From contig JADCFN010000019.1 in assembly GCA_020249505.1 (NCBI GenBank), positions 1 through 51,576 on the forward strand: DNA of 51,576 nucleotides, read 5' to 3'. The notes under the pieces are model-generated. The model worked only from the letters and a program-made list of their open reading frames with translations, made no database searches and was not told the DNA's origin. The position numbers and the translations under genes are program-made. This document shows positions 21,049-49,866 of this stretch, one piece after another. The number at the start of each line of letters is the position of its first letter. The first letter of the stretch is position 1. This stretch comes from Roseomonas sp. GTDB taxonomy: Bacteria; Pseudomonadota; Alphaproteobacteria; Acetobacterales; Acetobacteraceae.

Positions 21049-21816
21049 CTACTCCGGCTTATCCGTGCCAGACCCTGAACCGGGTGCCACAAAGCGCCGA
21101 CTATCCATGGTGATGCTCACCGGGCGGCCCTCGCGGCAATTGCTCATGCAGGCATTGTTTTCGGTATCGGGCCGCCCTTCCAGTACAAAGCCATCGCGAT
21201 TGGGCATGGCAAGCTTGGGTAGGCTTGTTGCATCCATCTTGTCGTCTTCACCAATCAGCTCATTCAGGTATAGCACATAGGCGGTGATGGCGTAGTATTC
21301 GTCGTTTGATAGGCTCTGCGGCGCGGCATAGGGCATGGCGCGGCGGATGTAATCAAAGACGCTCGGCGCATGCTGCCAGAAGGAACCGATGCTGCGCTTT
21401 GGCTGATCAGATCGCAGGCTGCCGCGCCCGCCCATCAGCGCGGGCCAACGTTCCAGCCCTTCACCGAAATCGCCGTGGCATCCAGCGCAATGCGTGACGT
21501 AAAGCTCCTCGCCTTCTTTCGCGGTGCCGCTGCCGGGCGGCAGGTTATGGCCATCACCGCGCACGGCGATATCCCAGCCGGCGATTTCTGCCGTTGTTGC
21601 GGCGCGGCCGATGCCTGGGATGGGTGCCGTAAGCGCTGCCGTACTGGCGGGCCAAGCGATATCGGCGCGCGTTCTCTCGCCCGGAGGCGCAGTGAAGGGG
21701 CGATAAATATCGCTGATGGCCGCTGAAGAATTTGGCGCCTGCTGCGCCTGCACAAGCCCAGCAATCAGCATGACGGCAGCAGTGTATCCCGCAACCTTAA
21801 GCATCAATCTGGACAT
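21049..21816 (-). CDS. soxD: SoxD-like c-type cytochrome (sulfane/sulfite dehydrogenase electron carrier)
   Basis: 255 aa. Signal peptide (VAGYTAAVMLIAGLVQAQ) targets the periplasm. One covalent haem site is seen, CAGCH at about residue 111. A C-terminal extension with NNACMSNCREG is characteristic of SoxD. Canonical SoxD is longer and often dihaem; this is the shorter one-haem form. It would take electrons from SoxC and pass them to a small cytochrome c during oxidation of SoxY-bound sulfane sulfur. The start overlaps the 3' end of soxC by 20 nt, supporting co-translation. Assignment rests on this neighbour and the C-terminal motif. Confidence 0.88.
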   Translation of the reverse strand: MSRLMLKVAGYTAAVMLIAGLVQAQQAPNSSAAISDIYRPFTAPPGERTRADIAWPASTAALTAPIPGIGRAATTAEIAGWDIAVRGDGHNLPPGSGTAKEGEELYVTHCAGCHGDFGEGLERWPALMGGRGSLRSDQPKRSIGSFWQHAPSVFDYIRRAMPYAAPQSLSNDEYYAITAYVLYLNELIGEDDKMDATSLPKLAMPNRDGFVLEGRPDTENNACMSNCREGRPVSITMDSRRFVAPGSGSGTDKPE

Positions 21817-23077
21817 TCACCACCGTCCCGTCGCGGTCAACCAGCCAGGTATGGATGCTGTTCTTGTGATAAATGCTCTCCACGCCGCGCGCGCGTCGTA
21901 GCGCCGTGATGGTGGGCTGCACGCGCCCGGTTTCATCCATGGCGCGGCTTTGCAAATAAGCGGTCTGGCCTTCGGCCCATTCCCAGGGGATGCGAAACCG
22001 TGTCAGCGCCTTGGGCAGCACGGGGTCCTGTAAGGTCGCACTCCGCCAATTATCGCCGCCATCCACACTCACATCCACGCGCGTGATGCGCCCGGCGCCA
22101 GACCAGGCAAGGCCAGAGATTTCGACAAAGCCTGGGCGCCCACGCAGCGGCTTTTCCGGGCAGGGCGCGGTGATGACCGAACTCACCTCATTCACAAAGG
22201 TGAATTGGCGGGCGAGGCCATCGGGCATCAAATCCGTATAGGTGCGCGTTTCCCAACGCGTGAACCAAGGCCGATCACCGATTTCGATGCGGCGCAGCCA
22301 TTTGATCCACATATTGCCTTCATAGCCAGGCAGCACCAGCCGGACCGGATAGCCCTGCTGTGGGCGCACCGCTTCGCCGTTCTGGCCAAAAGCGATGATC
22401 GCATCATCCAGCGCCTTGGATAGCGGGATGGACCGCGCCAGATGCGCCGCATCCGATGCTTCCGCCAATAGCCAGGAAGCTCCGGCGCGCAAGCCGGTTT
22501 GTGCGAGCAATAGCTTCAAAGGCACGCCGGTCCATTCCGAACAGGAAAGCATGCCATGGGTGAATTGCACGCCAGACATTTGCGCGCCGCGCCATTCCAT
22601 GCCGCCATTGGCCGGGCATTCGATGAAATGAATGCGAGAGACCGATGGCAGGCGCTTCAGATCTTCCAGCGTGAAAATCAGCGGGCGTTCCACCATGCCA
22701 TGGATCATCAGCCGATAATCCACAGGGTCCACATCCGGCACGCCGCCATGATGGCGTTCGAAATGCAGCCCGGATGGCGTGATGATGCCATGCATATCAG
22801 CAAGCGGCGTGAAGGAAACTGATGAGACCCGATCCGGCGTCAGCCATGGCACATAGCGGCGCACCGCGGTTTCATGCCGGCTGCGCGTACCATAGGTTTC
22901 CTCGATCACGCCGGGGCCAAGGCTGCGCGACCATTCCGGCAGATTGGGCGGTTGGTTTTCCGCATTGCCAGCCGCCTGCGCGATGCCGCCCGCAGTCGCC
23001 AGGCTGGCCGCACCCGCACCAGCGGCGCGCAATAGGCCGCGCCGGGAGGATGATTTCGGGTCTTTTCCAAGCCTCAT
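21797..23077 (-). CDS. soxC: Sulfane dehydrogenase, molybdopterin subunit SoxC
   Basis: 426 aa. Twin-arginine leader (SSRRGLLRAAGAG) for folded export with its molybdenum cofactor. Family features: GIITPSGLHFERHHGGVPDV, the Mo-coordinating Cys region HFIECPANGGMEWRG, THGMLSCSEWTGVPLK, QNGEAVRPQQGYPVRLVLPG, and the C-terminal Ig-like dimerisation domain starting near VEISGLAWSGAGRI. With SoxD it forms Sox(CD)2, which removes six electrons from the sulfane sulfur on SoxY, allowing full thiosulfate oxidation to sulfate without stored sulfur globules (family knowledge). It is 86 nt downstream of the flavocytochrome gene. Confidence 0.95.
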   Translation of the reverse strand: MRLGKDPKSSSRRGLLRAAGAGAASLATAGGIAQAAGNAENQPPNLPEWSRSLGPGVIEETYGTRSRHETAVRRYVPWLTPDRVSSVSFTPLADMHGIITPSGLHFERHHGGVPDVDPVDYRLMIHGMVERPLIFTLEDLKRLPSVSRIHFIECPANGGMEWRGAQMSGVQFTHGMLSCSEWTGVPLKLLLAQTGLRAGASWLLAEASDAAHLARSIPLSKALDDAIIAFGQNGEAVRPQQGYPVRLVLPGYEGNMWIKWLRRIEIGDRPWFTRWETRTYTDLMPDGLARQFTFVNEVSSVITAPCPEKPLRGRPGFVEISGLAWSGAGRITRVDVSVDGGDNWRSATLQDPVLPKALTRFRIPWEWAEGQTAYLQSRAMDETGRVQPTITALRRARGVESIYHKNSIHTWLVDRDGTVVNVQIDA

Positions 23078-23117
23078 GATGGTCTCCCTGGCAGAGAGCT
23101 TCTCATCGCCAACTGGC

Positions 23118-23144
23118 CCCTGACCATCGCTTGGATGGTCAGGG
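23118..23144. repeat. Perfect hairpin between fccB and soxC
   Basis: CCCTGACCATC (23118-23128) and GATGGTCAGGG (23134-23144) make an 11-bp perfect stem with a 5-nt loop. TTTT follows only on the plus strand, so as an intrinsic terminator it would act on antisense transcripts. On the minus-strand sox message it lies 20 nt after the fccB stop and could act as a processing or stability element. Confidence 0.6.
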
Positions 23145-23163
23145 TTTTGCCCCTTGCCCGATC

Positions 23164-24456
23164 TCAGCCGAACATCTCACCCGTGATGCTGTAGTACCAT
23201 CCATCGGCATAAAGCGCTTCAAGCTGACGATGTTCGCGCCGGCGCTCTGCGGTCAGTGCTGCATTGCGCGGGCTGACGCCGCCTGAACCTTCAACCTCGG
23301 CAAAGCCATTGGCGCCGGGGCGGAAGACGCCGACAATGGAAATGCCGTAATCAGGCCCGACATGGCTGTAGCAGGTATTGAAGAAGGTCGCGGATGGCGG
23401 AGCGCGCCCCGCCAGCGATGCCGCGATGCAGGCCACCGCATGCTTGGCATGCGATGACGCGACAAAGCCCGATTTCGGCATGGGCGCGGCGATGGTCGCA
23501 TCGCCCAGTACATGGATGCCTTCCACCTGCGTGCTTTCGAGCGTTGCGGGCTTGATCGGGCACCAGCCGGATTGATTGGCAAGCCCCGCATCACGCGCGA
23601 TCTTCGCGGCCATTTGCGGCGGAATCACGTTGATGACATCGCCCTTCAGCTTTTCGCCGAATTCCGTTTCCACTTCCATGGCAGCGGCATTCACCCGCGT
23701 CACACGCCCATCACTGGAAGCGCCACGCCATTCGATGATGCCGGGGTAAAGCTCTGCCCAGGCATCCTGAAATAGCGGTTGCTTGGAAAAGCCGTTCTTC
23801 GCATCAAGCGCAATCAGCTTGCTGCGCGGCTTGGCGCGCTTCAGATAATCGGCGACCATGCTGATCCGCTCATAAGGGCCGGGCGGGCAGCGGAAGGGAT
23901 TGTCCGGGATCACCATCACAAACCTGCCGCCATCGGGCATGGCTTCAAGCTGGCGGCGCAGCAGGGAAATCGGTTGCAGCGATGGCACCCAGCCATGCGG
24001 CATGCGCTCACTCGCCGCTTCATCATAGCCTTCAATGGCACCCCACCTTAGGTCAATCCCAGGTGACATGATCAGCCGGTCATAAGGCACCTGCGCCCCA
24101 TCCGCGAGGCGCACCTGCTTCGCGCCGGCATCCACCGCGACCACGCTTTGATGCACCACACGCACCCCACGCGCGGCGAGTTTTTCATAGCCGAAGGTAA
24201 TGCTGTTCATATCCCGCCGCCCGGCGAGAACCAGATTGCCGTAAGGGCAGGTGGTGAAACTCCGGCTCCGTTCGATCAGCGTAATGTCAAGCGCGGGGAA
24301 ATTATCGCGCGCGAAACGCGCGGCGGAAGCGCCGCCAAAGCCACCGCCAATGATGACAACGCGCCCGGCGCCGGCCTGGGCATGGGCGATACGGGGTGCG
24401 GCAAGGGCTGCGGGCAGTGCGGCGGCGGCCAGGAAGGCGCGGCGGGAAAGGGCCAT
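23164..24456 (-). CDS. soxF: Flavocytochrome c sulfide dehydrogenase flavoprotein subunit (FccB/SoxF)
   Basis: 430 aa. Tat leader (LSRRAFLAAAALPAALAAP). FAD motif VVIIGGGFGGASAARFARDN. The redox-active Cys pair expected beside the flavin is visible: Cys in NPFRCPPGPYERISMV (about residue 180) and Cys in FFNTCYSHVGPDYGISIVG (about 355). ATIAAPMPKSGFVASSHAKH is the second conserved FAD contact. It oxidises sulfide (or SoxY-linked polysulfide) and passes electrons to the small cytochrome encoded 17 nt upstream in the same direction. Length is normal for FccB. Confidence 0.93.
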   Translation of the reverse strand: MALSRRAFLAAAALPAALAAPRIAHAQAGAGRVVIIGGGFGGASAARFARDNFPALDITLIERSRSFTTCPYGNLVLAGRRDMNSITFGYEKLAARGVRVVHQSVVAVDAGAKQVRLADGAQVPYDRLIMSPGIDLRWGAIEGYDEAASERMPHGWVPSLQPISLLRRQLEAMPDGGRFVMVIPDNPFRCPPGPYERISMVADYLKRAKPRSKLIALDAKNGFSKQPLFQDAWAELYPGIIEWRGASSDGRVTRVNAAAMEVETEFGEKLKGDVINVIPPQMAAKIARDAGLANQSGWCPIKPATLESTQVEGIHVLGDATIAAPMPKSGFVASSHAKHAVACIAASLAGRAPPSATFFNTCYSHVGPDYGISIVGVFRPGANGFAEVEGSGGVSPRNAALTAERRREHRQLEALYADGWYYSITGEMFG

Positions 24457-28317: not shown

Positions 28318-30852
28318 TCATAGCGGCTGCCGACCCCTGCGCTGAACACGATTGAGCGAGCGTTCCGCCGATTCGCGGCCAACGAGTATTTCTTCGATAC
28401 GCGCGATTTCCATAGCCGTGATGCCAGCCCCAGTTTCACCCTGCGGCAGTTTTTCCATCTCGGCGCGGAATTCCTCCTGAACGGAAACATAGCTTTGCGA
28501 TGGCCCAAAACGCTTTCCCGTCTCCTCAAGGCTTCGGGCCACCCGTGCCATGGCTTCGATCTCAGCCAAATCACCGATTTGGTTTGGGGTCAGTCCCATC
28601 AGGGCGGCGTTCACGTGAACTGATACAACTTCGCGATAGGTTGACCGGCAGAACTGATCAAGATTGCGCCGATGCGCATGAAGTTCCTTTGCATCTAACT
28701 TTGACGTTATCTTGGGCTGATTTTCAAGAGCGGCGATGATCAGCCCGGCTTCTGCCGCCAGCCTGGCGCCATTGGCGAAATCCTCTTCCGCGAGTTCGGG
28801 TAGGGTAATGCCAATCCAGAGATTCAAGACCTCCTCTACAACCCCGGTGACTTGCGCCGGTAGATTGTTAATCAGGCTTAAGAAAAGCGAAGGCCGGCTG
28901 GCCCGTTTTAACAGGGTCTCCAAGGCAGCGGAGAATACCTGGCGCCCTTCATTGGCTGGTCCGATAAGCGCAGCGCGCAGCGCTTCGGGTGGGCAATCAT
29001 CACCCATCTGCTGCAAACAATCCCAAATCGGTCCAGCGTGTCGCCAAAGGGATCCAGCAAATTGTGTGATTCGCTCAAAATCCGGTTGCCCCAGGCCAGC
29101 GCTTGACCAGCCAGTGCCCAGGCGCAGGCGCGGCACTGAATTGGCGGCCAAGCCCCATAATTGCAGCCCAACGCGCGTCATAAGCTGATGATCATCAAGG
29201 CTGCCGCCACGCAGTTGAACCGACAGTAACTCTAATTGGGAAGCGCTCGTGTCTTGCAGGGATTCGATCATCGGCCCCAAGGCCGAACGAGGAATGCGCC
29301 CTTCAGTACGTTTCCACTGGAGGGGAGCCACCAAGGCCCCTTCCATTGGAAGGAAAAGAAGGCGTGTGAGGCTCGCGGGTCTTGGTGGGCGCAGGCGCTT
29401 GAGGCGCCGCAGCGAAGGTCCGAGAAGGCGTTCATGGATTTCCGGGTCGCCAAGCCGATCCACTAGCGCAACAATCTTGAGCAGCGCCGCATCTGAGGCA
29501 ACTTCAACCTGATTGCCGAGAGAGCGGGTCAGCGCCACAGGGTTTTCCGTGTCTAGTTTTTGGGACGTTGACTCGAAAATGGTAGGCTTTTCTGCCGCGC
29601 TGCGGGCGACGGTGGACTGCGGGGTGCCCTGTTTCGTCTTGAAGGCGGCACCATCACGTTTCAGCGCCAAGCGGTCATTCACCTGCGGCAGTACCATTGG
29701 GGAGACGCGGTTTTCATACGCGATTGAAAAGCCGATCAAATGCTCGTTGCGGGCGACAAGTTCCATGACATTGCCGCTGCGCCAGTCGGATTTATCGCGC
29801 ACCACCTGGGTGATGCGCCGTGGCGTTTCGCGCCAATCGCTCACCTTGCCAAGCCAAGCCTTGGCCTCGCGCGGCAGGATCGGCGCAATCAGGGCCATTT
29901 CCCATATTGTGGCGCGACGCTGTTTCGCGTCTGCTGCCGCCCAAAGGGCGATGGGTGTTTTCCAGCCATCCAGCACCCATTCAGGCCTCCGCGCACGTTC
30001 CAGGACATTATCCCTTTCCGTTCGCCATTTTGGCACAAAAAGGCCAAGATCGGCGATCAGGGCATCCGCGGTTGCCAGGGCGATTTCGGCGCATTCCAAT
30101 GTCTGCCGCGCCGTTTCCACGATGAAACGCGCTGCCATTACATGAGGCGCTTCTTTCTGTTGTTCGGCCGCCCAGTGGGTTACTTGGTCCACCAGGTCAT
30201 CAAGCTTTGTAACCATTTCGCGCAACCGCGCATCTTCGCCTTCAAGCTTTGGTGCTGAACCGGCCAAGGCGATAGCAAGAGCCTCAAGATCCGCTGAGAA
30301 TTCCGCGATTGGGATTTGTGCCAGAGCCGCAGCGCGCGCGACAGCACGTTCACCCCGTTTCAGGAAGGATGCGCTATCGGTAAGGCTGGATCGCCCAGCC
30401 GCTTCAGTTGGCACTTCGGAGGCCGCAATCAGTGTCTCAAGCAGCATGGCGCGCATCAGTCTTTGGCCGGATTGGTCGCGCCGCTGTGCATCCCTGGCCG
30501 CCAAGGCAGCGCGCCGCCCGGCGAGTCCTTGGGCGGCCAGCCTTTGCGCCTCCTGCCGAATTCCGACCGGGGAAATGTCCTCCGCAGTGCTCAAACTCTC
30601 CCATAAATGGCGATCAAAAAGCGTGGGAGAACAAATCTCCGGCATGAATAACCAAGGCATGATCAAGGCCCCGCGGCCGCCGGAAGGATTGGCTACCACC
30701 ACCTCAAATCCACGTCCGGAACTGGCAGCGCGCATACGGGCATTCAGCAGCAAGGGGGTCGTGAATGGGACGGTTGAACCCCTTTCACGAAAACTTGCTG
30801 GCTCAAACGAATCCGACCGGAAGCGCTCGAGTTCGGAAAGTGAAATAGACAT
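28318..30852 (-). CDS. Unrecognised large soluble protein
   Basis: 844 aa from ATG 30852; a TTG at 30912 would add 20 residues. I do not recognise a family. There is no signal peptide, no membrane helix and no obvious nucleotide-binding or catalytic motif. It is mostly helical, Ala/Leu/Arg/Glu-rich with scattered Trp, and has a possible linker at about 420-460 rich in Thr/Ser/Lys/Gln. A more conserved-looking block is RPASLTRLLFLPMEGALVAP followed by WKRTEGRIPRSALGPMIESL. The C-terminal end is basic (RVQRRGRQPL). It stands alone: 110 nt before soxY in the same direction and behind an AT-rich 5' region. No link to sulfur oxidation is shown. Confidence 0.8.
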   Translation of the reverse strand: MSISLSELERFRSDSFEPASFRERGSTVPFTTPLLLNARMRAASSGRGFEVVVANPSGGRGALIMPWLFMPEICSPTLFDRHLWESLSTAEDISPVGIRQEAQRLAAQGLAGRRAALAARDAQRRDQSGQRLMRAMLLETLIAASEVPTEAAGRSSLTDSASFLKRGERAVARAAALAQIPIAEFSADLEALAIALAGSAPKLEGEDARLREMVTKLDDLVDQVTHWAAEQQKEAPHVMAARFIVETARQTLECAEIALATADALIADLGLFVPKWRTERDNVLERARRPEWVLDGWKTPIALWAAADAKQRRATIWEMALIAPILPREAKAWLGKVSDWRETPRRITQVVRDKSDWRSGNVMELVARNEHLIGFSIAYENRVSPMVLPQVNDRLALKRDGAAFKTKQGTPQSTVARSAAEKPTIFESTSQKLDTENPVALTRSLGNQVEVASDAALLKIVALVDRLGDPEIHERLLGPSLRRLKRLRPPRPASLTRLLFLPMEGALVAPLQWKRTEGRIPRSALGPMIESLQDTSASQLELLSVQLRGGSLDDHQLMTRVGLQLWGLAANSVPRLRLGTGWSSAGLGQPDFERITQFAGSLWRHAGPIWDCLQQMGDDCPPEALRAALIGPANEGRQVFSAALETLLKRASRPSLFLSLINNLPAQVTGVVEEVLNLWIGITLPELAEEDFANGARLAAEAGLIIAALENQPKITSKLDAKELHAHRRNLDQFCRSTYREVVSVHVNAALMGLTPNQIGDLAEIEAMARVARSLEETGKRFGPSQSYVSVQEEFRAEMEKLPQGETGAGITAMEIARIEEILVGRESAERSLNRVQRRGRQPL

Positions 30853-31016
30853 GGCGCCTAATTCTACATGTTCGGGACTGGTAAGGGAAGGCTTCTTGCC
30901 GTTGCATACCAAAGGAAATTGTCAGCGATGCGCTATCCCGCGTTGCAAAGAATTAAAGCATTAACCTTTAACTTTTGCGCGAAAAAAACGCATAGAGCGC
31001 GGCTTAATACGCCGGT
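30853..31016. other. AT-rich intergenic region before the 844-aa gene
   Basis: 164 nt, clearly richer in A/T than its surroundings. It holds a perfect short inverted repeat TTAAAG-N7-CTTTAA (30953-30971), a possible operator. A run of seven A (30982-30988, T on the minus strand) could be the tail of a weak terminator for the hydroxyacid dehydrogenase operon ending at 31017, though I find no strong stem before it. No RNA gene is evident. Confidence 0.4.
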
Positions 31017-31955
31017 TCACGCCACGCGGTTCAAAAGCGGCTTACCTGCGGCAAACCGTTGGCAATTCTCTGCCGCGATGCTGAAGGAACGGGCAAAGGT
31101 CCCGTTGGAAAGCCAAGCGACATGCGGCGCCAGCACCACATTAGGCAGGCCAAGCAAAGGGTCGGCGGGGTCCAGGGGCTCGGCGGCAAAAACATCCAGC
31201 CCCGCCGCAGCCAAATGGCCAGATTGCAGCGCCGCCACCAGTGCGGGCTGATCCACCAGGCCGCCACGGGCGGTGTTTACCAGGATAGCGCCCGGTTTCA
31301 TGCGGGCAATCGCCGCGGCATTGATCAGCCCCCGGGTTTCGAGCGTTTCTGGGATATGGAGTGAGACCACATCGGCTTCCGCCAAAAGTGCCTCCAACGG
31401 GCGAAACGTGCCAATCGCCTTGGGCTTCGGGGCGCGGGCGGTGTACAGAACCTCACACCCCATGGCTTGTAGGACGGGGGCGAGAAGCTTCGGCACCGCG
31501 CCATAGCCAACCAGCCCCACCTTCCGCCCGCCCAGTTCAAACAAACCATCCTGTAGGGCAGGGGGCTGAGACCAGCCGCGCCCGGCGCGGGTCTCAGCAT
31601 CAAAATAGGCAATGCGGCGCAGCGCACCCAGCATCAGCAAAAGCGTCATTTCCGCGACCGCCCGGCTATTCGTGCCTGGCAGATTGCACACCGCGATGCC
31701 CCGCGCCCGGGCGGCCTCCAGGTCAATGGTATTCACGCCAACGCCGATTTTCTGGATCAGGCGAAGCTTGGGCGCGGCGGCGATATCAGCGGCGGTGATG
31801 GGGCGGAGCACATGCCAGATCACCTCAATCTCCGGCAGCAGGCGCGCGTAAAGCGCGGTATCGGCTTCCGGACAGATGGTCAGGTCAATGCCGGGCAGTG
31901 TCGCCAACTGTGCCGCCAGCCCCGGCCCGGCGTCATAATGCAGCAGCACCTTCAT
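31017..31955 (-). CDS. D-isomer-specific 2-hydroxyacid dehydrogenase
   Basis: 312 aa. NAD(P)-dependent interconversion of a 2-keto acid and its D-2-hydroxy acid. The cofactor motif is VGLVGYGAVPKLLAPVLQ, where IG of GxGxIG is replaced by VP. Catalytic Arg lies in NTARGGLVDQPAL, Glu in AAEPLDPADPL and His in VVLAPHVAWLS. The N-terminal substrate domain has KIGVGVNTIDLEAARARGIAV. ATG 31955 overlaps the enolase-like stop (ATGA). As last gene of a receptor-kinase-enolase unit, glycerate/hydroxypyruvate-type substrates are plausible; that is inference. Confidence 0.92.
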   Translation of the reverse strand: MKVLLHYDAGPGLAAQLATLPGIDLTICPEADTALYARLLPEIEVIWHVLRPITAADIAAAPKLRLIQKIGVGVNTIDLEAARARGIAVCNLPGTNSRAVAEMTLLLMLGALRRIAYFDAETRAGRGWSQPPALQDGLFELGGRKVGLVGYGAVPKLLAPVLQAMGCEVLYTARAPKPKAIGTFRPLEALLAEADVVSLHIPETLETRGLINAAAIARMKPGAILVNTARGGLVDQPALVAALQSGHLAAAGLDVFAAEPLDPADPLLGLPNVVLAPHVAWLSNGTFARSFSIAAENCQRFAAGKPLLNRVA

Positions 31956-33241
31956 GGCCGGGACCGCCCAAGATAGGCGCCGCCGGCAAAACGCGCCCGG
32001 GCGCCCAGGCTTTCTTCCACGCGAAGCGCCTCATTCCATTTCGCCATGCGCTCGGATCGCGCGAAGGAACCGACCTTCAATTGGCCGACACCCCAACCCA
32101 TCGCCAGGTGGACAATGGTGACGTCCTCGGTTTCGCCCGACCGGGCGCTGACAATGCCGGCGAAGCCCACGTCACGCGCGGCATCCCAGGCGGCTTTGGT
32201 TTCGGTCAGTGTGCCGCGCTGATTGGGCTTGATCAGCACGGTATTGGCGGCACCCATGGCAGCAGCCCGGCGCACGCGCGCGGCATCTGTCACCAGGAAA
32301 TCATCGCCCACCACCTGAATGCGGCCGCCCACTTCGCGGGTGAAGGCAGCGAAGCCCGCCGCGTCATCCTCGGCCAGCGGGTCTTCGATGGAAGCGATCG
32401 GATAGGCAGCGATCCAGCCGAGCAACATGCGGATCATCTCATCCGTGCCGAGTTCGCGGCCTTCCAACCCAAGCTTATACCGCCCACCCTTGCCGAAATC
32501 CGTCGCCGCAATGTCAAGCGCAATCGCCACTTGCCGCCCCGGCGCAAAACCCGCTTTTTCGATGGCGGCAACAAGGGTTTCCAAAGCCTGTTCATTGGCG
32601 GTGAAGGCGGGCCACCAGCCGCCTTCATCGGCGACCCCTTGCATGAGCCCGCGCTGCTTCATGATGGCGCCAGCGGCGCGATAGACTTCGGCGGTCCAAT
32701 CCAAAGCCTCGGCAAAGCTGGTCGCGGCCGGGCACATCACCAGAAAATCCTGGATATCCACGCGCCGCCCGGCATGGGCACCGCCGCCCAGAATTTGGAT
32801 TTGCGGTAGCGGCAAAACATTGGGCGTATCGCCGCCCAGATAGCGCCAGAGCGGCACACCAGAAGCCGCCGCGGCAGCATGGGCAGCCGCCATGGAAACG
32901 GCGAGCGTCGCATTGGCGCCAAGGCGCGTTTTTTGCGGCGTGCCATCGCGCGCAATCAGCCGCGCATCCAGGGCCGCTTGCGCGCGCGCATCCATCCCAA
33001 GCAGGGCAGGGGCCAATTCGCGGTTCACGGCATCCACCGCGCCGGTCACGTCATAACCGCCAAAGGCAGCGCCACCATCGCGCTTGTCCAAAGCCTCACC
33101 ACTGCCGGTGCTGGCACCGGCGGGGGCAATGGCACGGCCTGTCGCCCCACCTGCCAGGGTGATTTCCGCTTCCACGGTGGGCCGGCCTCGGCTGTCCCAA
33201 ACGCGACGACCGCGAATGGCGGTGATGCTGGTGCTGCTCAT
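31952..33241 (-). CDS. Enolase-like protein with altered active site
   Basis: 429 aa, full enolase length and fold. Retained: catalytic loop PAGASTGSGEA, GGGAHAG (yeast His159), ADEGG (Glu211), metal ligands in ALDIAATDF (Asp246), SIEDPLAEDD (Glu295) and VGDDFLVTD (Asp320), the base Lys in LIKPNQRGTLTET (Lys345) and Lys in GQLKVGS (Lys396). Changed: QEFM becomes QDFL (Glu168 to Asp) and SHRSGETED becomes SARSGETED (His373 to Ala). It dehydrates 2-phosphoglycerate or a related 2-phospho-3-hydroxy acid by family knowledge; the changes suggest a paralogue with shifted substrate or rate. The start overlaps the kinase stop by 4 nt. It might still be the only enolase; the rest of the genome is not visible. 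Confidence 0.9.
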   Translation of the reverse strand: MSSTSITAIRGRRVWDSRGRPTVEAEITLAGGATGRAIAPAGASTGSGEALDKRDGGAAFGGYDVTGAVDAVNRELAPALLGMDARAQAALDARLIARDGTPQKTRLGANATLAVSMAAAHAAAAASGVPLWRYLGGDTPNVLPLPQIQILGGGAHAGRRVDIQDFLVMCPAATSFAEALDWTAEVYRAAGAIMKQRGLMQGVADEGGWWPAFTANEQALETLVAAIEKAGFAPGRQVAIALDIAATDFGKGGRYKLGLEGRELGTDEMIRMLLGWIAAYPIASIEDPLAEDDAAGFAAFTREVGGRIQVVGDDFLVTDAARVRRAAAMGAANTVLIKPNQRGTLTETKAAWDAARDVGFAGIVSARSGETEDVTIVHLAMGWGVGQLKVGSFARSERMAKWNEALRVEESLGARARFAGGAYLGRSRP

Positions 33242-34248
33242 GCGCCGATCTCTTCCCCCCAGGCCGCGCGCACCGCCAGCAGGCGATCCTCGGGCTTGGT
33301 CAATAAGGCACGCGCCACGCGGCGCACGCGGTTTTTATCATGCTCCTGGGTCAGGTATTCGACCGGGCTTTTGCCGTCCACCCGTGCGAGGAAAAGCCCC
33401 GGCAGCAGCCGCGCCGCGCGCGCTTCCAGCGCATCCGCTGCTTCCCAGGTGATGCCGGCCAGATAGCGCGCCGAAAGCGCTTCAAAGCAGGCCATGAATC
33501 CCGCGCTGGCGCTTGGCGTCCACAGGCATTTCAGCAAAAGATGATTGAGGCAAAAGGCAAGATCGAAAGCGGGATCACCCCACCAGGCACATTCCGCATC
33601 CAGAAACACTGGGCCTGATGGCCCGCACAGGATATTCTTTGGGCTGACATCACCATGAACCAAACTGCGTTTGCTGCGCGCGGTGACTGCCGCGATATCT
33701 TCCAAAACCGCTGCCAGATCAGGATGCGCGCGCGCGGTCGCCAGCAGATAAGGTTCCAGCCGGATGGCGTGGAAAATCTCATCCGTCGGGAAAGCTCCCG
33801 CCAAGCCGGGATGCGCGGCGGCATGGGCATGGATGGCCGCGATGCGCCGCCCGACCTCAGCCGCGAAGGCCACATCCGCATGGCCACCCTGCAGCCGCGC
33901 CTTCCAGACAGGATGATCCGCCGGCGAGAGGAATTCCATGGCGAGCGCGCCCGTCGCCTCATCCTGGCCGAGGAGTTTCGGCACGGCGCCGGGCAAAGCG
34001 CGATCTGCTTCCAAAAGCCAGCGCGCTTCATAAGTATTGCGCACCACGGGCGCGCGCCAATCGGCGGCCACCTTCAGCTTGGGCAAAGCGCGTTTGACGC
34101 AAATCTCGCGCCCATCGGGCAGTTTTAGATGCCAGATATCGGACGAAACGCCGCCCGCCAGCGCCTCACCCTGCACAGGCTGGCCGGGGGCGAGCAGCCC
34201 CATGGCGACAAGCCCCGCAGCGATGGCCTCTGGCAAAGGTTCCGGCAT
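33238..34248 (-). CDS. APH-fold small-molecule kinase (phosphotransferase family)
   Basis: 336 aa. Protein-kinase-like fold of the aminoglycoside/choline kinase superfamily: ATP Lys in EICVKRALPKL, catalytic loop LVHGDVSPKNIL (HGD Asp with Asn), and Mg-binding VFLDAECAWWGDPAFDLAFC. The N-terminal part has LAGGVSSDIWHLKLPDG, a phosphate-binding loop variant. Family members phosphorylate hydroxyl groups of small molecules; antibiotic resistance should not be assumed. It lies 3 nt after the solute-receptor gene and overlaps the enolase-like gene by 4 nt, so the substrate is probably the imported compound or a derivative of it. Confidence 0.9.
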   Translation of the reverse strand: MPEPLPEAIAAGLVAMGLLAPGQPVQGEALAGGVSSDIWHLKLPDGREICVKRALPKLKVAADWRAPVVRNTYEARWLLEADRALPGAVPKLLGQDEATGALAMEFLSPADHPVWKARLQGGHADVAFAAEVGRRIAAIHAHAAAHPGLAGAFPTDEIFHAIRLEPYLLATARAHPDLAAVLEDIAAVTARSKRSLVHGDVSPKNILCGPSGPVFLDAECAWWGDPAFDLAFCLNHLLLKCLWTPSASAGFMACFEALSARYLAGITWEAADALEARAARLLPGLFLARVDGKSPVEYLTQEHDKNRVRRVARALLTKPEDRLLAVRAAWGEEIGA

Positions 34249-34251
34249 GGC

Positions 34252-35193
34252 TCAGCGCTTCAGTAGCGCTTCCCAGCGCGTCACCTCGGCGGCCAGATAG
34301 GTTTCGCTTTCGGCGACATTCAGGCTGAGAATGCGGTCAGCGCCCAAATCCCCCAAGCGCTTGCGAAGCGCTTCCTGGCCAAGGGCGCGGTTGATCGCGG
34401 CATTCAGTATTTCGCGCCGGTCGCGCGGTGTTGCGCTCGGGACAAAAACCGCCTGCCAGACGCTCATTTCCGCGTCTACACCGCCTTCGCGCCAGGTCGG
34501 CACATCAGGATTGGCAGCATTACGGTGCGCGGTCGTCACGGCAAAAGCACGCGCCTGATTGCCGCGCGCGGTCTGAAAGCCCGTCAGCCCCGCATCGAAC
34601 ATCATGGCAATCCGCCCCGCCGCAAGGTCGAGTGTTGCGGGCGCGCCGCCGCGATAGGGCACTTCATTCAACTGCACGCCCGTCGCCTTCAGATAAAGCA
34701 GCGCTGCCATTTGCAGAATGCCGCCACCGCCAGAACTGCCATAATCCAATTGCCCGGGTCGTGCCTGAGCCAGCGCGGTGAATTCGCGGAGATTATTGGC
34801 CGGCACATTATTCGCAACCAACATCACAATGGGAGATTCAGCGACCACCGCAATCGCCTGCAAGCTGGTGATGGGATCAATCGGCGGATTGGGCACCAGC
34901 ACGCGCAAGGCCGCGTGGCCGGTATTGTTGAACAGCACCGTATGGCCATCAGCCGGGGCGCGGGCCACGACCTCGGCCCCCACCATGCCGCCAGCGCCGC
35001 CGCGGTTTTCGATGACAAGCGGCTGCGGCAGAATCGGTGCCATGGCTTCCGCCAGCACGCGGGCCACCACATCGGTCGCCCCACCCGCAGCATAGGGCAC
35101 GATCACGCGAATGGGCCTTTCGGGATAGGCGCTGGCCGGCGCGAAAGGCGCCAGCAACAGCATCAGAACGGACAAAACCCAGCGCAAGCGCAT
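34252..35193 (-). CDS. Tripartite tricarboxylate transporter (TTT/Bug) solute-binding protein
   Basis: 313 aa from ATG 35193, with an AAAGGGGGGAAAG ribosome-binding site directly upstream. Signal peptide RWVLSVLMLLLAPFAPASA, then the Bug-family opening YPERPIRVIVPYAAGGATDV, ENRGGAGGMVGAEVVARAPA, LDYGSSGGGGILQMAALL and EVPYRGGAPATLDLAAGRI. Bug proteins bind carboxylates in the periplasm; TctA/TctB membrane partners are not nearby, as is common. First gene of the four-gene unit with the kinase, the enolase-like protein and the dehydrogenase. Confidence 0.94.
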   Translation of the reverse strand: MRLRWVLSVLMLLLAPFAPASAYPERPIRVIVPYAAGGATDVVARVLAEAMAPILPQPLVIENRGGAGGMVGAEVVARAPADGHTVLFNNTGHAALRVLVPNPPIDPITSLQAIAVVAESPIVMLVANNVPANNLREFTALAQARPGQLDYGSSGGGGILQMAALLYLKATGVQLNEVPYRGGAPATLDLAAGRIAMMFDAGLTGFQTARGNQARAFAVTTAHRNAANPDVPTWREGGVDAEMSVWQAVFVPSATPRDRREILNAAINRALGQEALRKRLGDLGADRILSLNVAESETYLAAEVTRWEALLKR

Positions 35194-36874: not shown

Positions 36875-36966
36875 TTCCCCGCTTGCGGTAGGCCGCGGAT
36901 AGGAGAAGGATCAGGAAACGAGGCGCCGCACCAATGCCGCGCCGTGAACGAACGGAGGGTCCAGGA

Positions 36967-38304
36967 ATGGCCAATCAGATCACGCGCCGCCAGGCGCTGG
37001 GCGCCACCGCGGCATTGATCGCCGCGCCCGCCTTTGTGCGGCAAGCCAATGCGCAAAGCCGCTTTGACTGGAAGCGCTTTGCCGGCGAACGCATCGAAGT
37101 CACGCTGCAAACATCGCCGCGTGGCTTGCTGCTGCAACGCCAGAACAAGGAATTCGAAGACCTGACGGGCATTCGCTGCGGTATTGAAGTGGTGCCGGAA
37201 CAGCAGCATCGCCAGAAAATCATCGTGGAATATGCCTCTGGCAGGCCTTCCTTCGATGTGGCGGAACTCAGCTTGCATGTGAATAAGCGTCAGGTCGGCA
37301 AGGCTCGCTGGAATACGGATATCAAGGCGCTGATTGCGGATCAATCCATCACCGCGCCTGATTTCGACTTCGCCGATTTTGGCGCTGGCATGGTGCAATA
37401 TGCGACGCAAGCCGATGGGCGGATGGATTCACTGCCGGCCTTCGCTGATTACTTCATCCTTTACTATAACAAGGAATTGCTGGCGGCGAAGAATATTGCC
37501 GTGCCGACGACCTTTGATGGCATGTTCGAAGCGGCGCGCGCGCTGACCGAACCTTCCCGCCAGATCTATGGCCATGTCGGGCGCGGCTTGAAGAACGCCA
37601 ATGTTGTGCTGTGGTCCAGCTATCTGCTTGGCACGGCGCAGCGCGACATGATCAACGCCAATCGCCAATTGATCACGGATACGGATGACGCGATCTGGGC
37701 CGGCGAGATGTACAAGAAGTTCTTGCGTGATGTCTCCCCGCCCGGGTCCATCGGCTTCAATTGGAATGAATGCCAAACCACCTTCATGCAGGGCCGCGCG
37801 GCCATGTGGATTGATGGCATTGGCTTCGCCGCACCCTTGGAAGATCGCCAGCGTTCCCGCGTGGCAGGCAAGGTTGGCTATGCGCTGGTGCCGAAGGGCC
37901 GCGGTGCCAATCACCATTGCTGCCTATTCGGCGCGGGCTATGGCATTCCCGAAGCGTCACGCAAAAAGGGCGCGGCGTGGCTGTATCTGCAATGGGCGCT
38001 TGGCAAGGAAAACCAGCTTCGCTTCCTGACCAGCGGTGCCGGCGTGCCGGCGCGCAGCAGCCCCTTCGGCAATGAAGCGGCGATTGCCGCCAGCACCTTC
38101 CCGCGCGAATTCTTCAACACGCTCAATGAAAGTGCGAAAATCGCGCGCGCTGGCCTGCCGGAAATTGTGCCGGTGACGCAATTCCGCGACGTGATCGGCA
38201 CGGCACTTACCAACACCATCAGCGGTTCGGATGTGGCGACGGAACTGCGTCGCGCCACGGCTGAATTCCGCCCGGTTCTTGAGCAAAGCGAACGGGAAAG
38301 CTGA
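36967..38304 (+). CDS. ABC transporter solute-binding protein (family 1, carbohydrate type)
   Basis: 445 aa from ATG 36967, preceded by GGAGGGTCCAGG. Tat-like leader QITRRQALGATAALIAAPAF. Two-lobe binding-protein features: FEDLTGIRCGIEVVPEQQHR, SLPAFADYFILYYNKELLAA, ECQTTFMQGRAAMWIDGIGF, and ACC-less family ending ELRRATAEFRPVL. It binds sugars, polyols or glycerol-phosphate-type solutes in the periplasm and delivers them to the two permeases encoded immediately downstream. Confidence 0.93.
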   Translation: MANQITRRQALGATAALIAAPAFVRQANAQSRFDWKRFAGERIEVTLQTSPRGLLLQRQNKEFEDLTGIRCGIEVVPEQQHRQKIIVEYASGRPSFDVAELSLHVNKRQVGKARWNTDIKALIADQSITAPDFDFADFGAGMVQYATQADGRMDSLPAFADYFILYYNKELLAAKNIAVPTTFDGMFEAARALTEPSRQIYGHVGRGLKNANVVLWSSYLLGTAQRDMINANRQLITDTDDAIWAGEMYKKFLRDVSPPGSIGFNWNECQTTFMQGRAAMWIDGIGFAAPLEDRQRSRVAGKVGYALVPKGRGANHHCCLFGAGYGIPEASRKKGAAWLYLQWALGKENQLRFLTSGAGVPARSSPFGNEAAIAASTFPREFFNTLNESAKIARAGLPEIVPVTQFRDVIGTALTNTISGSDVATELRRATAEFRPVLEQSERES

Positions 38305-38319
38305 GGCTCTCGCAAACTG

Positions 38320-39231
38320 ATGCAGCAAGCTGAAACCATCACCGCGTCCCCCAGCAAGGGGGCGCGGGTGCGCAATTACGCCCGGCATTATGGCTGGTTC
38401 ATTGTGCCGGCGGCGGTGGTGGTGCTTGCCGTCATCATCTTTCCTTGGATTTTCACGATTTATGTCTCCGCCCATGATTGGCATCTGGGCGGGGAAAGGC
38501 GCTGGGTGGGGTTCGATAATTACACCAAGCTGTTTTCTGATTCCCGCTTCGGCTGGGCGATGCTGCGCACGCTATTCTATACGCTGCTGGCGGTGGTGTT
38601 TCCGATGCTGCTGGGGCTGGCGGCGGCGCTGGCCTTTAATCGCAAATTTCCGCTGCGCGGCCTGGCGCGCACCATTTTCATCCTGCCCATGATGGCAACG
38701 CCGGTGGCGGTGGCGCTGGTGTGGACCATGACCTTTCACCCGCAGCTTGGCGTGCTGAATTGGCTTTTGGGCCAGGTGGGTCTGCCGCCCAGCATGTGGA
38801 TTTATAGCGCGAATACCGTGATCCCAACCTTGGTGATGATCGAGGTCTGGCATTGGACACCCTTGGTGATGCTGCTGATCCTGGGTGGCCTCGCTTCCTT
38901 GCCGATTGATCCTTATGAGGCTGCGAAGATTGATGGCGCCAATGGCTGGCAGGCCTTTCGCCACATCACGCTGCCCTTGCTGATGCCCTTTATTGTCGTG
39001 GCCCTGATCATCCGCTGCATTGATGCGCTGAAGGCTTTTGATACGATCTACGTCATCACCCAGGGCGGGCCGGGCTCAGCGAGCGAGACGATCAATATCT
39101 TCCTTTATCTGCAAGCTTTTGCCTTTTACAATGTGGGCTATGCCTCGGCCGTGGTGGTGGTGTTCTTTGTGATCATCCTGGCGCTGGCTGCGCTGCTGCT
39201 ATGGACGCGTCAGCGGGTGAAAATGACATGA
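38320..39231 (+). CDS. ABC sugar permease, MalF/UgpA type
   Basis: 303 aa with six predicted membrane helices: IVPAAVVVLAVIIFPWIFTI, AVVFPMLLGLAAALAFNR, MMATPVAVALVWTMTF, TVIPTLVMIEVWHWTPLVML, IVVALIIRCIDALKAF and AVVVVFFVIILALAALLL. The EAA loop that docks on the ATPase is ASLPIDPYEAAKIDGANGWQ. It is 15 nt after the binding-protein gene and overlaps the next permease gene by 4 nt (ATGA). Confidence 0.94.
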   Translation: MQQAETITASPSKGARVRNYARHYGWFIVPAAVVVLAVIIFPWIFTIYVSAHDWHLGGERRWVGFDNYTKLFSDSRFGWAMLRTLFYTLLAVVFPMLLGLAAALAFNRKFPLRGLARTIFILPMMATPVAVALVWTMTFHPQLGVLNWLLGQVGLPPSMWIYSANTVIPTLVMIEVWHWTPLVMLLILGGLASLPIDPYEAAKIDGANGWQAFRHITLPLLMPFIVVALIIRCIDALKAFDTIYVITQGGPGSASETINIFLYLQAFAFYNVGYASAVVVVFFVIILALAALLLWTRQRVKMT

Positions 39232-40085
39232 GTGTGGAAGCAAAGCGTAGCCCTGCGCAGTATCGGCTGCGTCGGCTGATCGGCAATATTGGCTTTGGCT
39301 TTTCGGTGCTGGTGCTGGTTTCGCCCGCCATCCTGTTTTTCCTTTGGATGCTGTCGCTATCCTTCAAGAATGAGCTGGACAATACCGATTGGCCGCCGAT
39401 CTTCATTCCGCAATCGCCGACCTTGGACAATTACCGCGAAGTTTTTGCACGCAATGATTTCCTGCGCTTTGCCTGGAATTCCATTGTGGTGTCCTTCGGT
39501 GCCACTGGAATTGCGCTGCTGATTGGCGTGCCGGCGGGCTATGGCATCGCCAAGATGCACGCCATGCGCGCTGCGGCACTGATCCTGATTGCGCGCATTA
39601 CGCCTGGGCTTTCCTATCTGATCCCGCTGTTTTTGCTGTTCCAATGGCTGGGCATGACCGGCAGCCTGACGCCGATTGTCATCACGCATTTGGTCATCAC
39701 GGTGCCTATCGTGGTCTGGGTGATGATTTCATTTTTTGAGGGCCTGCCGCCGGAATTGGAAGAAGCCGCTTTGGTGGATGGTGCGACCATCTGGCAGGCG
39801 TTTCGTTATGTGGCGATGCCCTTGGCGCGGCCAGGGATCACCGTTGCCACTATTCTGTCCTTCATTTTTTCCTGGAACAATTTCATCTTCGCGATGGTGC
39901 TGGCGGGGCGTGAAACGCGCACGCTGCCGGTCGCGGTGAACAACATGTTGACTTTTGAGCAGATCGCCTGGGGGCCGCTTTCCGCTGCGGCGTTACTAGT
40001 AACGGCGCCCGTGCTGATCCTGACGCTGGTGGCGCAAAAGCAGATTGTGGCTGGGCTGACGGCGGGGGGTGTGAAGGGGGCTTAG
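39228..40085 (+). CDS. ABC sugar permease, MalG/UgpE type
   Basis: 285 aa from ATG 39228, inside the ATGA overlap with the partner permease. Helices include FGFSVLVLVSPAILFFLWML, TGIALLIGVPAGYGIAKMHA, VITHLVITVPIVVWVMISFF and LSAAALLVTAPVLILTLVAQ. The EAA loop is PPELEEAALVDGATIWQAF. It completes the membrane channel, but no ABC ATPase gene follows; the importer must borrow a shared ATPase (MsmX/UgpC-type) encoded elsewhere. Confidence 0.94.
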   Translation: MSVEAKRSPAQYRLRRLIGNIGFGFSVLVLVSPAILFFLWMLSLSFKNELDNTDWPPIFIPQSPTLDNYREVFARNDFLRFAWNSIVVSFGATGIALLIGVPAGYGIAKMHAMRAAALILIARITPGLSYLIPLFLLFQWLGMTGSLTPIVITHLVITVPIVVWVMISFFEGLPPELEEAALVDGATIWQAFRYVAMPLARPGITVATILSFIFSWNNFIFAMVLAGRETRTLPVAVNNMLTFEQIAWGPLSAAALLVTAPVLILTLVAQKQIVAGLTAGGVKGA

Positions 40086-48907: not shown

Positions 48908-49866
48908 GCAGGCGCAAGATTGAGGCGCCGCAGCAGGGCGCGTTCTTCATCCATGGTCTGGCGCATCGATTCCCGATAGGCAGCGCCATCCATCAGTATC
49001 AGCGGCTGATTGACACGTTCCAGGAATTGCAAATGCGCGGGGTCTTGCGTGGCGGCGGTGAAGGCTTCCGCCAGCACGCGCACCACGCCGGCATCCATGC
49101 CGCGCGGGCCGATCAGCCCGCCTGGGCTATCCACCACAATATCCAAGCCCTGTTCCTTCAATGTTGCCACCTGCGGAAAACGCTTGGCGCGGGTGGAGGT
49201 ATAAATCGCAAGCAGCCGCAATTGCCCCGCTTCCACCATCGGCGCCCAGCCGGATGCTTCTGAGGCAAAATCAATCTCCCCACCCACCAGCGCGCGCAGC
49301 GTGTCGGACGTGCCGCGATAGGGCACATGCGTCCAGCTCAAGCCGCGCTGAAAGCCGATGCGTTCCACCACCAGATGCTGTGTGGAACCAATACCAAGCG
49401 TGCCAAAATTGAGCTTGCCCGGATTGGCGCGCGCATGGGCCAGCAATTGTTCAAGGCTCTGCCAGGGAGAATCCGCGCGCACCACCAGGCCCATGACGAA
49501 GCCGGTAATTTGCAGAATGTAAGTCAGGTCATTGATCGGATCATAGGGCGGGCGGGGATTGAGCAGCATTTGCCGCACCACACCGACATGCATTTGCGAA
49601 ATCGTATAGCCATCGGGGCGCGCTTCCTGCAGCGCCATGGCACCCAAAATGCCGGAAGCGCCGCCGCGATTTTCGACCACCACCGGCTGGCCAAGGTTGC
49701 GCGATGCATGATCGGCCATGATGCGAAAGCCCACATCCGCCGGACCGCCGGCCGCCCAGGGAATGATCAGGCGAATGGGCCGTTCAGGGAAGCGAGGCTG
49801 CGCCAAGGCCGGCATGGCAAGCAATGCCGAAGCGCCAAGCGCCGCACGACGGGTGATTTGCGCCAT
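48904..49866 (-). CDS. TTT/Bug-family solute-binding protein
   Basis: 320 aa from ATG 49866, with GGAGG 9 nt upstream. Tat-like leader QITRRAALGASALLAMPALA. Bug hallmarks: FPERPIRLIIPWAAGGPADV, VVVENRGGASGILGAMALQE, LNFGTLGIGSTQHLVVERIG, HVPYRGTSDTLRALVGGEID. It binds an unknown carboxylate-type ligand in the periplasm. Stand-alone, with no membrane partner adjacent, as for most Bug paralogues. It is convergent with hemN. Confidence 0.93.
   Translation of the reverse strand: MAQITRRAALGASALLAMPALAQPRFPERPIRLIIPWAAGGPADVGFRIMADHASRNLGQPVVVENRGGASGILGAMALQEARPDGYTISQMHVGVVRQMLLNPRPPYDPINDLTYILQITGFVMGLVVRADSPWQSLEQLLAHARANPGKLNFGTLGIGSTQHLVVERIGFQRGLSWTHVPYRGTSDTLRALVGGEIDFASEASGWAPMVEAGQLRLLAIYTSTRAKRFPQVATLKEQGLDIVVDSPGGLIGPRGMDAGVVRVLAEAFTAATQDPAHLQFLERVNQPLILMDGAAYRESMRQTMDEERALLRRLNLAPA

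Follow-up and report, generated by a model that had tools for sequence, protein, structure and literature searches.

We identified, in a 51,576-nucleotide stretch of DNA from Roseomonas sp. (contig JADCFN010000019.1; the window), two adjacent genes encoding an APH-fold kinase (KIN) and an enolase-like dehydratase (ENO) that form the conserved core of a recurring gene set, to which a TctC-type receptor is a local addition and in which a D-2-hydroxyacid dehydrogenase (DH) is found as one partner among several. What we observed directly is the order of the genes, their conservation and co-occurrence, the residue changes and the predicted kinase fold. On balance, and by a small margin, we believe that KIN and ENO catalyze successive steps of a single catabolic module, and that the acid on which this module acts is probably not plain D-glycerate.

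The four genes lie contiguously on the minus strand, and reading that strand bore out the spacing given in the preliminary description, i.e., a 3-nt gap and two ATGA overlaps. The first gene encodes a TctC/Bug-type periplasmic receptor of 313 aa (34252..35193; Pfam TctC, 168 bits), and its TGA stop codon is followed by GCC and then by the ATG of KIN at 34248. KIN (336 aa; 33238..34248; Pfam APH, 58 bits), a small-molecule kinase that has the APH fold and belongs to the methylthioribose-kinase branch, has its stop codon within the ATGA at 33241-33238 that also starts ENO (429 aa; 31952..33241; Pfam Enolase_N, 156 bits, and Enolase_C, 281 bits), and a second ATGA at 31955-31952 is common to the ENO stop and the start of DH (312 aa; 31017..31955; 2-Hacid_dh_C, PF02826, 181 bits, and 2-Hacid_dh, PF00389, 91 bits), which ends at 31017. 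The genes scanned on one side of this set are HtrA-like, cupin and ABC transporter genes; on the other side lies an unmatched 864-aa open reading frame.

Our search for conserved co-occurrence covered 102 KIN loci, 22 from a genome search and 80 from a contig search, the latter being the top-ranked among at least 506 relatives; L039 duplicates L117 and L040 duplicates L104, leaving 100 distinct loci, and the loci are not independent, many being relatives of each other. Counting KIN and ENO as adjacent where they share a strand with a gap of at most 250 bases between the matches, we observed adjacency in 86 of these 102 loci, with ENO elsewhere within the fetched locus in 11 and absent from it in 5 (86, 10 and 4 of the distinct loci), and ENO lay downstream of KIN in 82 of the 102. 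Neighboring genes were called with our own script, and the kinase gene of L050 was added by hand. Most hosts are Proteobacteria, the others being a few Actinobacteria and a single Acidobacteria bin, and the KIN-ENO pair is found across distant taxa rather than in one or two genomes only. Two genome searches, one of them behind this taxonomic spread, took the best 5 or the best 10 candidates per genome at E ≤ 1e-20, and their counts are lower bounds. An ENO-like gene was found in 34 of 36 KIN-bearing genomes searched, a full-length canonical enolase also in 34 of 36, and both together in 33 of 36. The Acidobacteria locus (L103) contains KIN with no ENO-like gene found, its genome showing only an unassignable enolase fragment, and no ENO-like gene was found in the KIN-bearing alphaproteobacterial genome G038; the missing ENO of L099 is uninformative, since KIN lies at a contig end there.

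A TctC gene is present in 14 of the 17 near loci (L003-L019, with L003 the window's own), is absent from L013 and L015 and is cut short in L008, and no TctC match occurs in the 22 more distant loci (L023-L029 and L038-L052). The source genome contains 147 TctC matches in 4.06 Mb, and the presence of one at this locus is therefore far less telling; TctA and TctB were not found beside the receptor among the flanking genes scanned. Its distribution over near and distant loci and its abundance in the genome together ruled out TctC as a core part. Thus, of the four-gene unit originally proposed, KIN and ENO stand, DH stands in part of the loci, and the receptor is a lineage-specific first gene outside the conserved core, which may import a carboxylate in the window's lineage only.

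ENO scores 472 bits with the TIGR01060 profile (equivalog cut-off 300), is approximately 45% identical to the canonical enolase of the same genome, and gives a predicted structure with a mean pLDDT of 89.1. In its top PDB alignment, to an entry that we take to be the Chloroflexus enolase, the residue numbers match those used in the paper on that enzyme. Positions 165 and 366 correspond to Glu168 and His373 of yeast enolase; a search of the open-licence PubMed Central literature found no paper naming the role of His373. In a paper on a Chloroflexus enolase, 2-PGA is bound by Glu165, Glu206, Lys338, Arg367 and Ser368 (PMC4450660). The catalytic base and acid, the three metal ligands, the loop Ser and the phosphate-binding Arg/Ser are kept in the window's ENO and in nearly all of the 97 KIN-linked ENO sequences, a set that includes duplicates (96 without them). 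Position 165, however, is Asp in 97 of 97 linked sequences and Glu in 26 of 26 canonical enolases (those fetched among 34 full-length canonical enolases found), and position 366 is Ala in 95 of 96 linked sequences and His in all 26; three of the 29 other enolases are ENO-like, were already among the linked sequences, and were left out of the canonical count. The window's ENO, with Asp165 and Ala366, does not contain the canonical Glu/His combination. Arg occupies position 160 in 66 of 71 non-redundant ENO sequences (100 sequences reduced by an 80% identity cut) and in none of the 26 canonical enolases, and further distinguishing residues are Ala204, Trp210 (for Ala) and Gly152. Judged by these residues, the 3-hydroxyl site of ENO is altered compared to canonical enolase, and Arg160 may read an extra polar group of the substrate.

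An unrooted tree of 63 of the 126 enolase sequences, comprising 28 of the 29 others and 35 linked sequences of more than 350 residues (five named, plus every third of the remainder), splits ENO-like from canonical enolases by one branch with support of 100/99. Under midpoint rooting, a deeply divergent group (L098, L131 and L132) lands on the canonical side, so the tree does not demonstrate that the ENO-like group arose only once. The residues and the tree together ruled out ENO as a simple recent duplicate of the housekeeping enolase.

DH matches both PF02826 and PF00389, which places it among the D-2-hydroxyacid dehydrogenases; its nearest solved relatives are glycerate dehydrogenase/glyoxylate reductase and phosphoglycerate dehydrogenase, and none of its 21 NCBIfam matches reaches the cut-off. 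In 28 of 102 loci (26 of 100 without duplicates) a DH homologue is found no more than 6 kb from KIN; as a yardstick, the window's genome has 30 PF02826 matches, many of them weak. Three types of 2-hydroxyacid dehydrogenase recur beside KIN: the window-type DH, a Rhizobium-type DH from a second D-2-hydroxyacid dehydrogenase group, and a PanE-type reductase (8 of 102 loci). An FAH-fold hydrolase is the partner in 22 of 102 loci, in 19 of which an SDR dehydrogenase is also present; the member searched, from L078, resembles L-2,4-diketo-3-deoxyrhamnonate hydrolase, and such an enzyme would split a six-carbon acid into pyruvate and glycerate. The KIN-ENO pair seems self-sufficient, since 46 of 102 loci contain none of DH, PanE and the FAH-fold hydrolase. 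Other neighbors, labeled by eye, include an FMN reductase, a branched-chain-type receptor, a CoA-transferase and a glutaryl-CoA dehydrogenase, and just 4 loci share an HAD hydrolase.

From these parts we infer the reactions of the module, their direction, their stereochemistry and their substrate. DH would supply KIN with its (R)-2-hydroxy acid by reducing a 2-keto acid; KIN would use ATP to phosphorylate a small 2,3-dihydroxy acid at the 2-hydroxyl; and ENO would convert the product to an enol phosphate, with the alpha proton taken by Lys338 and the 3-hydroxyl expelled via Glu206. The parts are consistent with the order of chemistry suggested in the preliminary description, from 2-keto to 2-hydroxy to 2-phospho acid and then to an enol phosphate, and two further 2-hydroxyacid dehydrogenase types recur beside KIN. 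The end product would most likely be PEP, because often no further recurring enzyme lies beside the module, and this would in turn make the acid most likely a glycerate; we would guess at L-glycerate first, and at a four-carbon 2,3-dihydroxy acid second. We tentatively propose, as a reading that could well be wrong, that KIN phosphorylates L-glycerate or a four-carbon acid at the 2-position and that ENO, as a divergent true enolase but not one for D-2-phosphoglycerate, then dehydrates the resulting 2-phospho acid, so that a product of sugar-acid cleavage is salvaged. Stereochemistry counts against L-glycerate: the (R) acids that D-2-hydroxyacid dehydrogenases and PanE generally form fit D- and not L-glycerate.

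An acid of four to six carbons (erythronate, threonate, tartrate or an aldonate), on which KIN and ENO would replace a sugar-acid dehydratase to give the enol phosphate of a 2-keto-3-deoxy acid, is in our view unlikely. Asp165 and Ala366 could serve a larger acid, as these substitutions would free space around C3 and an additional group could be recognized by Arg160, although Trp210 in place of Ala adds bulk nearby. Similarly, 14 of the 22 hydrolase loci have no dehydratase of the MR or IlvD clusters within 6 kb (other dehydratase types and contig ends not being allowed for), but 8 of the 22 do carry one. In the recurring neighbor clusters, no phosphatase, kinase or aldolase suited to such an enol phosphate was conspicuous, and the 46 loci with none of the three tested partners also argue against such a route.

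That the module is a plain D-glycerate route, in which DH converts hydroxypyruvate to D-glycerate, KIN forms D-2-phosphoglycerate, and ENO is a second enolase for this compound on a separately regulated path to PEP, we consider improbable. It is consistent with the stereochemistry typical of DH and PanE and with the ENO profile score, and in Rhizobium KIN has a PEP carboxylase gene two genes away (7 loci, 5 of them distinct), although this gene is confined to Rhizobium and may be an accidental neighbor. The class II glycerate kinase (PF13660) is absent in 5 of 43 KIN-bearing genomes tested, and KIN could be the D-glycerate kinase in those five. It is, however, kept in the window's genome and in the other 38, which speaks against the earlier suggestion that KIN replaces a known glycerate kinase, and a canonical enolase is present besides ENO in the window's genome. 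Plain D-glycerate is doubtful because most hosts tested contain both of these enzymes and because the 3-hydroxyl site of ENO is altered; the same residue changes argue against D-2-phosphoglycerate as the main substrate of ENO.

The assignment of KIN to the APH fold is clear, with PF01636 at 58 bits (cut-off 23.2) and conserved HGDxxxxN/D catalytic motifs, and a Pfam scan found nothing besides APH except a fructosamine-kinase match below threshold, with no match to the class I (PF02595) or class II (PF13660/MOFRL) glycerate kinases. The overall fold predicted for KIN has methylthioribose kinases as its nearest solved structures, yet we regard it as very improbable that KIN is a methylthioribose, antibiotic or choline kinase with unrelated neighbors, since it scores 52.8 bits with the methylthioribose kinase profile TIGR01767 (cut-off 275) and its adjacency to an enolase would be difficult to account for; the family cut-off and gene context ruled out an antibiotic or methylthioribose kinase.

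To our knowledge, enolases are regarded as a family with a single reaction, and automatic annotation would name ENO phosphopyruvate hydratase because it passes the curated cut-off. If the module does act on L-glycerate or a four-carbon acid, ENO would carry out a second enolase reaction in nature, many genomes would contain mislabeled genes that score above the phosphopyruvate hydratase cut-off, and the three known glycerate kinase classes would be joined by KIN as a fourth glycerate-type kinase unrelated to them. A KIN-linked enolase group with a rebuilt 3-hydroxyl site would thus break the one-reaction rule and give a new carbon route from sugar acids. Our search of the open-licence PubMed Central literature found no description of this gene set, of an L-glycerate or APH-type glycerate kinase, or of an enolase acting on other acids.

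The type of chemistry is known, and KIN-ENO appears to be a variant of it new to the literature searched. The serine cycle contains a segment of hydroxypyruvate reductase, glycerate 2-kinase and enolase, in which, as proposed here, a 2-keto acid is reduced, its 2-hydroxyl phosphorylated, and the product dehydrated to an enol phosphate. KIN differs in being APH/methylthioribose-kinase-like and not a class I, II or III glycerate kinase, and ENO in belonging to a separate enolase group with changed residues at the 3-hydroxyl. The glycerate kinases are described as three unrelated classes (PMC2063504). The methylthioribose kinase MtnK shares its fold and APH catalytic motifs with KIN, but KIN is only 16-17% identical to methylthioribose kinases in structural alignments, falls well under the family cut-off, and has sugar-acid type genes among the recurring neighbors identified. 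With canonical enolase (phosphopyruvate hydratase), ENO has in common the metal ligands, the catalytic Lys/Glu, the phosphate Arg/Ser and a score above the profile cut-off, but it differs by Asp165, Ala366, Ala204, Trp210, Gly152 and mostly Arg160, and in being KIN-linked and extra to a canonical copy. Finally, the SDR and FAH-fold hydrolase beside KIN in 19 of 102 loci, mostly from Rhodobacterales and other Alphaproteobacteria, resemble the non-phosphorylative L-rhamnose/L-fucose route, which pairs a 2-keto-3-deoxy acid 4-dehydrogenase with a 2,4-diketo-3-deoxy acid hydrolase. The L-fucose route ends in pyruvate and L-lactate (PMC13406643), whereas the KIN loci add a kinase and an enolase, an addition that would make sense if the second hydrolase product were glycerate.

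Our analysis of the window confirmed the layout given in the preliminary description, in which four minus-strand genes (35193-31017) follow one another with 3 nt between receptor and kinase and ATGA overlaps at the next two junctions, and Pfam bore out each family, i.e., a Bug-type receptor encoded first (TctC, 34252-35193), an APH-fold kinase (APH, 33238-34248), an enolase-like protein (Enolase_N/Enolase_C, 31952-33241) and a D-2-hydroxyacid dehydrogenase (2-Hacid_dh, 31017-31955). As that description had also stated for operons of this make-up, no account of the gene set was recognised in the literature searched; a term search of the text of an L-glucose/L-galactose pathway paper found neither "glycerate" nor "enolase" (PMC12632266). 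The nearest named homologues of the kinase mark the genome as that of a Roseomonas-like member of the Acetobacteraceae. Adjoining the unit is an 864-aa open reading frame (28318-30912, minus strand) with no match in Pfam or NCBIfam; L027-L029, three loci of the same genus, have weak relatives of it (33-41% identity) close to the unit. On the opposite strand, the genes for a carbohydrate-type ABC transporter (an SBP_bac_1 receptor with two permeases; 36934-40085, plus strand) start approximately 1.7 kb past the start of the unit, with an HtrA-like protease and a cupin encoded in between. At 21797-24456 (minus strand), a flavocytochrome c sulfide dehydrogenase flavoprotein is encoded next to a molybdopterin-binding oxidoreductase that has a dimerisation domain, a pair that suggests sulfur oxidation.

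The kinase had a match in all 34 same-genus relatives searched (partial only in G023 and G027), and was patchy in the order (at least 25 of 200 genomes) and the phylum (at least 9 of 397), counts taken at an E of 1e-20 or better that include the window's own genome and are lower bounds, part of the first-look candidates having been scored. A scan of species genomes found at least 506 relatives; among the best 80 are Rhodobacterales, Rhizobiales, Burkholderiales, Granulosicoccus, Streptomyces, Arthrobacter and an Acidobacteria bin. Among 102 kinase loci (100 distinct), the enolase-like gene adjoins the kinase gene in the same orientation in 86 (downstream in 82, upstream in 4), occupies another place in the locus in 11, and is absent from 5. 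The linkage of kinase and enolase-like protein is real, widespread and coherent. TctC was found in 14 of 17 near loci (L013 and L015 lack it), and none of 22 more distant loci gave a match to it. It carries little weight, given that the 4.06-Mb genome has 147 matches to TctC/Bug receptors, a second of which lies in the window at 48916-49728.

Of 36 kinase-bearing genomes, 34 contain an enolase-like gene, 34 a full-length canonical enolase, and 33 both. Most enolase-like proteins are 53-100% identical to that of the window, versus 44-49% for canonical enolases; those linked to the kinase in L131 and L132 are divergent (47-48%) and were told by residues and linkage. Comparison of 97 linked rows (one a duplicate) with 26 canonical sequences showed that the catalytic residues are common to both, and that position 165 is Asp in 97/97 linked rows versus Glu in 26/26 canonical sequences, and position 366 Ala in 95/96 (one Gly, with one further row gapped) versus His in 26/26. 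The Gly366 row is from a Streptomyces locus (L118), in a genome with another enolase-like copy. Further residues separating the groups, among 71 non-redundant enolase-like proteins, are Ala204 (71), Trp210 (68), Gly152 (68) and Arg160 (66). In yeast enolase, His373 contacts the 3-hydroxyl. In a crystal study, 2-phosphoglycerate is bound by Glu165, Glu206, Lys338, Arg367 and Ser368, and the general acid is yeast Glu211 (PMC4450660). Set against these contacts, the residue pattern indicates that the sites of proton abstraction and phosphate binding are preserved and the surroundings of the 3-hydroxyl rebuilt. In a maximum-likelihood tree of 63 sequences, one branch parts enolase-like from canonical proteins (support 100/99), from which a single origin of the enolase-like group does not follow, since the tree is unrooted and midpoint rooting places L098, L131 and L132 on the canonical side. 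These three Burkholderiales-type loci have the order enolase-like gene then kinase, and their enolase-like proteins are deeply divergent (46-48% to the window), yet keep Asp165 and Ala366; they possibly act on a different substrate.

Within 6 kb of the kinase, a D-2-hydroxyacid dehydrogenase was the lone partner in 26 of 102 loci, an FAH-fold hydrolase in 20, both together in 2, and a PanE-type reductase was found in 8. The dehydrogenases form a window-like group downstream of the enolase-like gene and a Rhizobium/Streptomyces group upstream of the kinase, 34-40% identical to that of the window; counting PanE, the recurring 2-hydroxyacid dehydrogenases are thus of three types. In six Rhizobium and Paraburkholderia loci (L093, L101, L104, L107, L117 and L119, neighbours being family-searched in L119), the dehydrogenase-kinase pair and enolase-like gene lie near a glyoxalase/dioxygenase-superfamily protein, a zinc alcohol dehydrogenase and a cupin-like gene, joined in the Rhizobium loci by an apparent FMN reductase and an apparent ABC receptor of the branched-chain type, which may point to an additional degradative route upstream. 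All three partners are absent within 6 kb in 46 of 102 loci. That other recurring enzymes are often missing favours a central product, PEP, and hence a C3 acid.

The 2-hydroxyl phosphorylation and dehydration originally proposed for the kinase and enolase-like protein is likely as a type of chemistry, and its D-glycerate example fared less well. The class II glycerate kinase family PF13660 occurs in 38 of 43 kinase-bearing genomes, including the window's own, versus 8 of 12 kinase-free genomes, and so most hosts tested already possess a path from D-glycerate to PEP; class I (PF02595) occurs in 3 of 43 (one partial) versus 4 of 12. This existing path and the enolase changes favour another acid.

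One candidate comes from the 22 hydrolase loci, which contain a LacI gene (16), an SDR (19) and an MR- or IlvD-type dehydratase (8), the latter two within 6 kb of the kinase, and a sugar ABC transporter receptor (9). For example, the L078 cluster encodes an SDR, an MR-type dehydratase, an SMP-30 lactonase, the kinase, the enolase-like protein, the hydrolase and a second SDR, a gene set suggesting a route that would run from sugar through aldonate, 2-keto-3-deoxy acid and diketo acid to pyruvate and glycerate, with the kinase and enolase-like protein carrying glycerate on to PEP. The L078 hydrolase matches L-2,4-diketo-3-deoxyrhamnonate hydrolase (8gsr, 276 bits) and scores 351 bits against NCBIfam, under the cut-off of 500; the L106 and L119 hydrolases, at 258 and 261 aa, are shorter and may be different. 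By analogy with the L-sugar substrates known for hydrolase relatives, L-glycerate is suggested; the usual products of the dehydrogenases found beside the kinase are (R) acids, which disfavours L-glycerate and favours D-glycerate or a longer (2R) acid.
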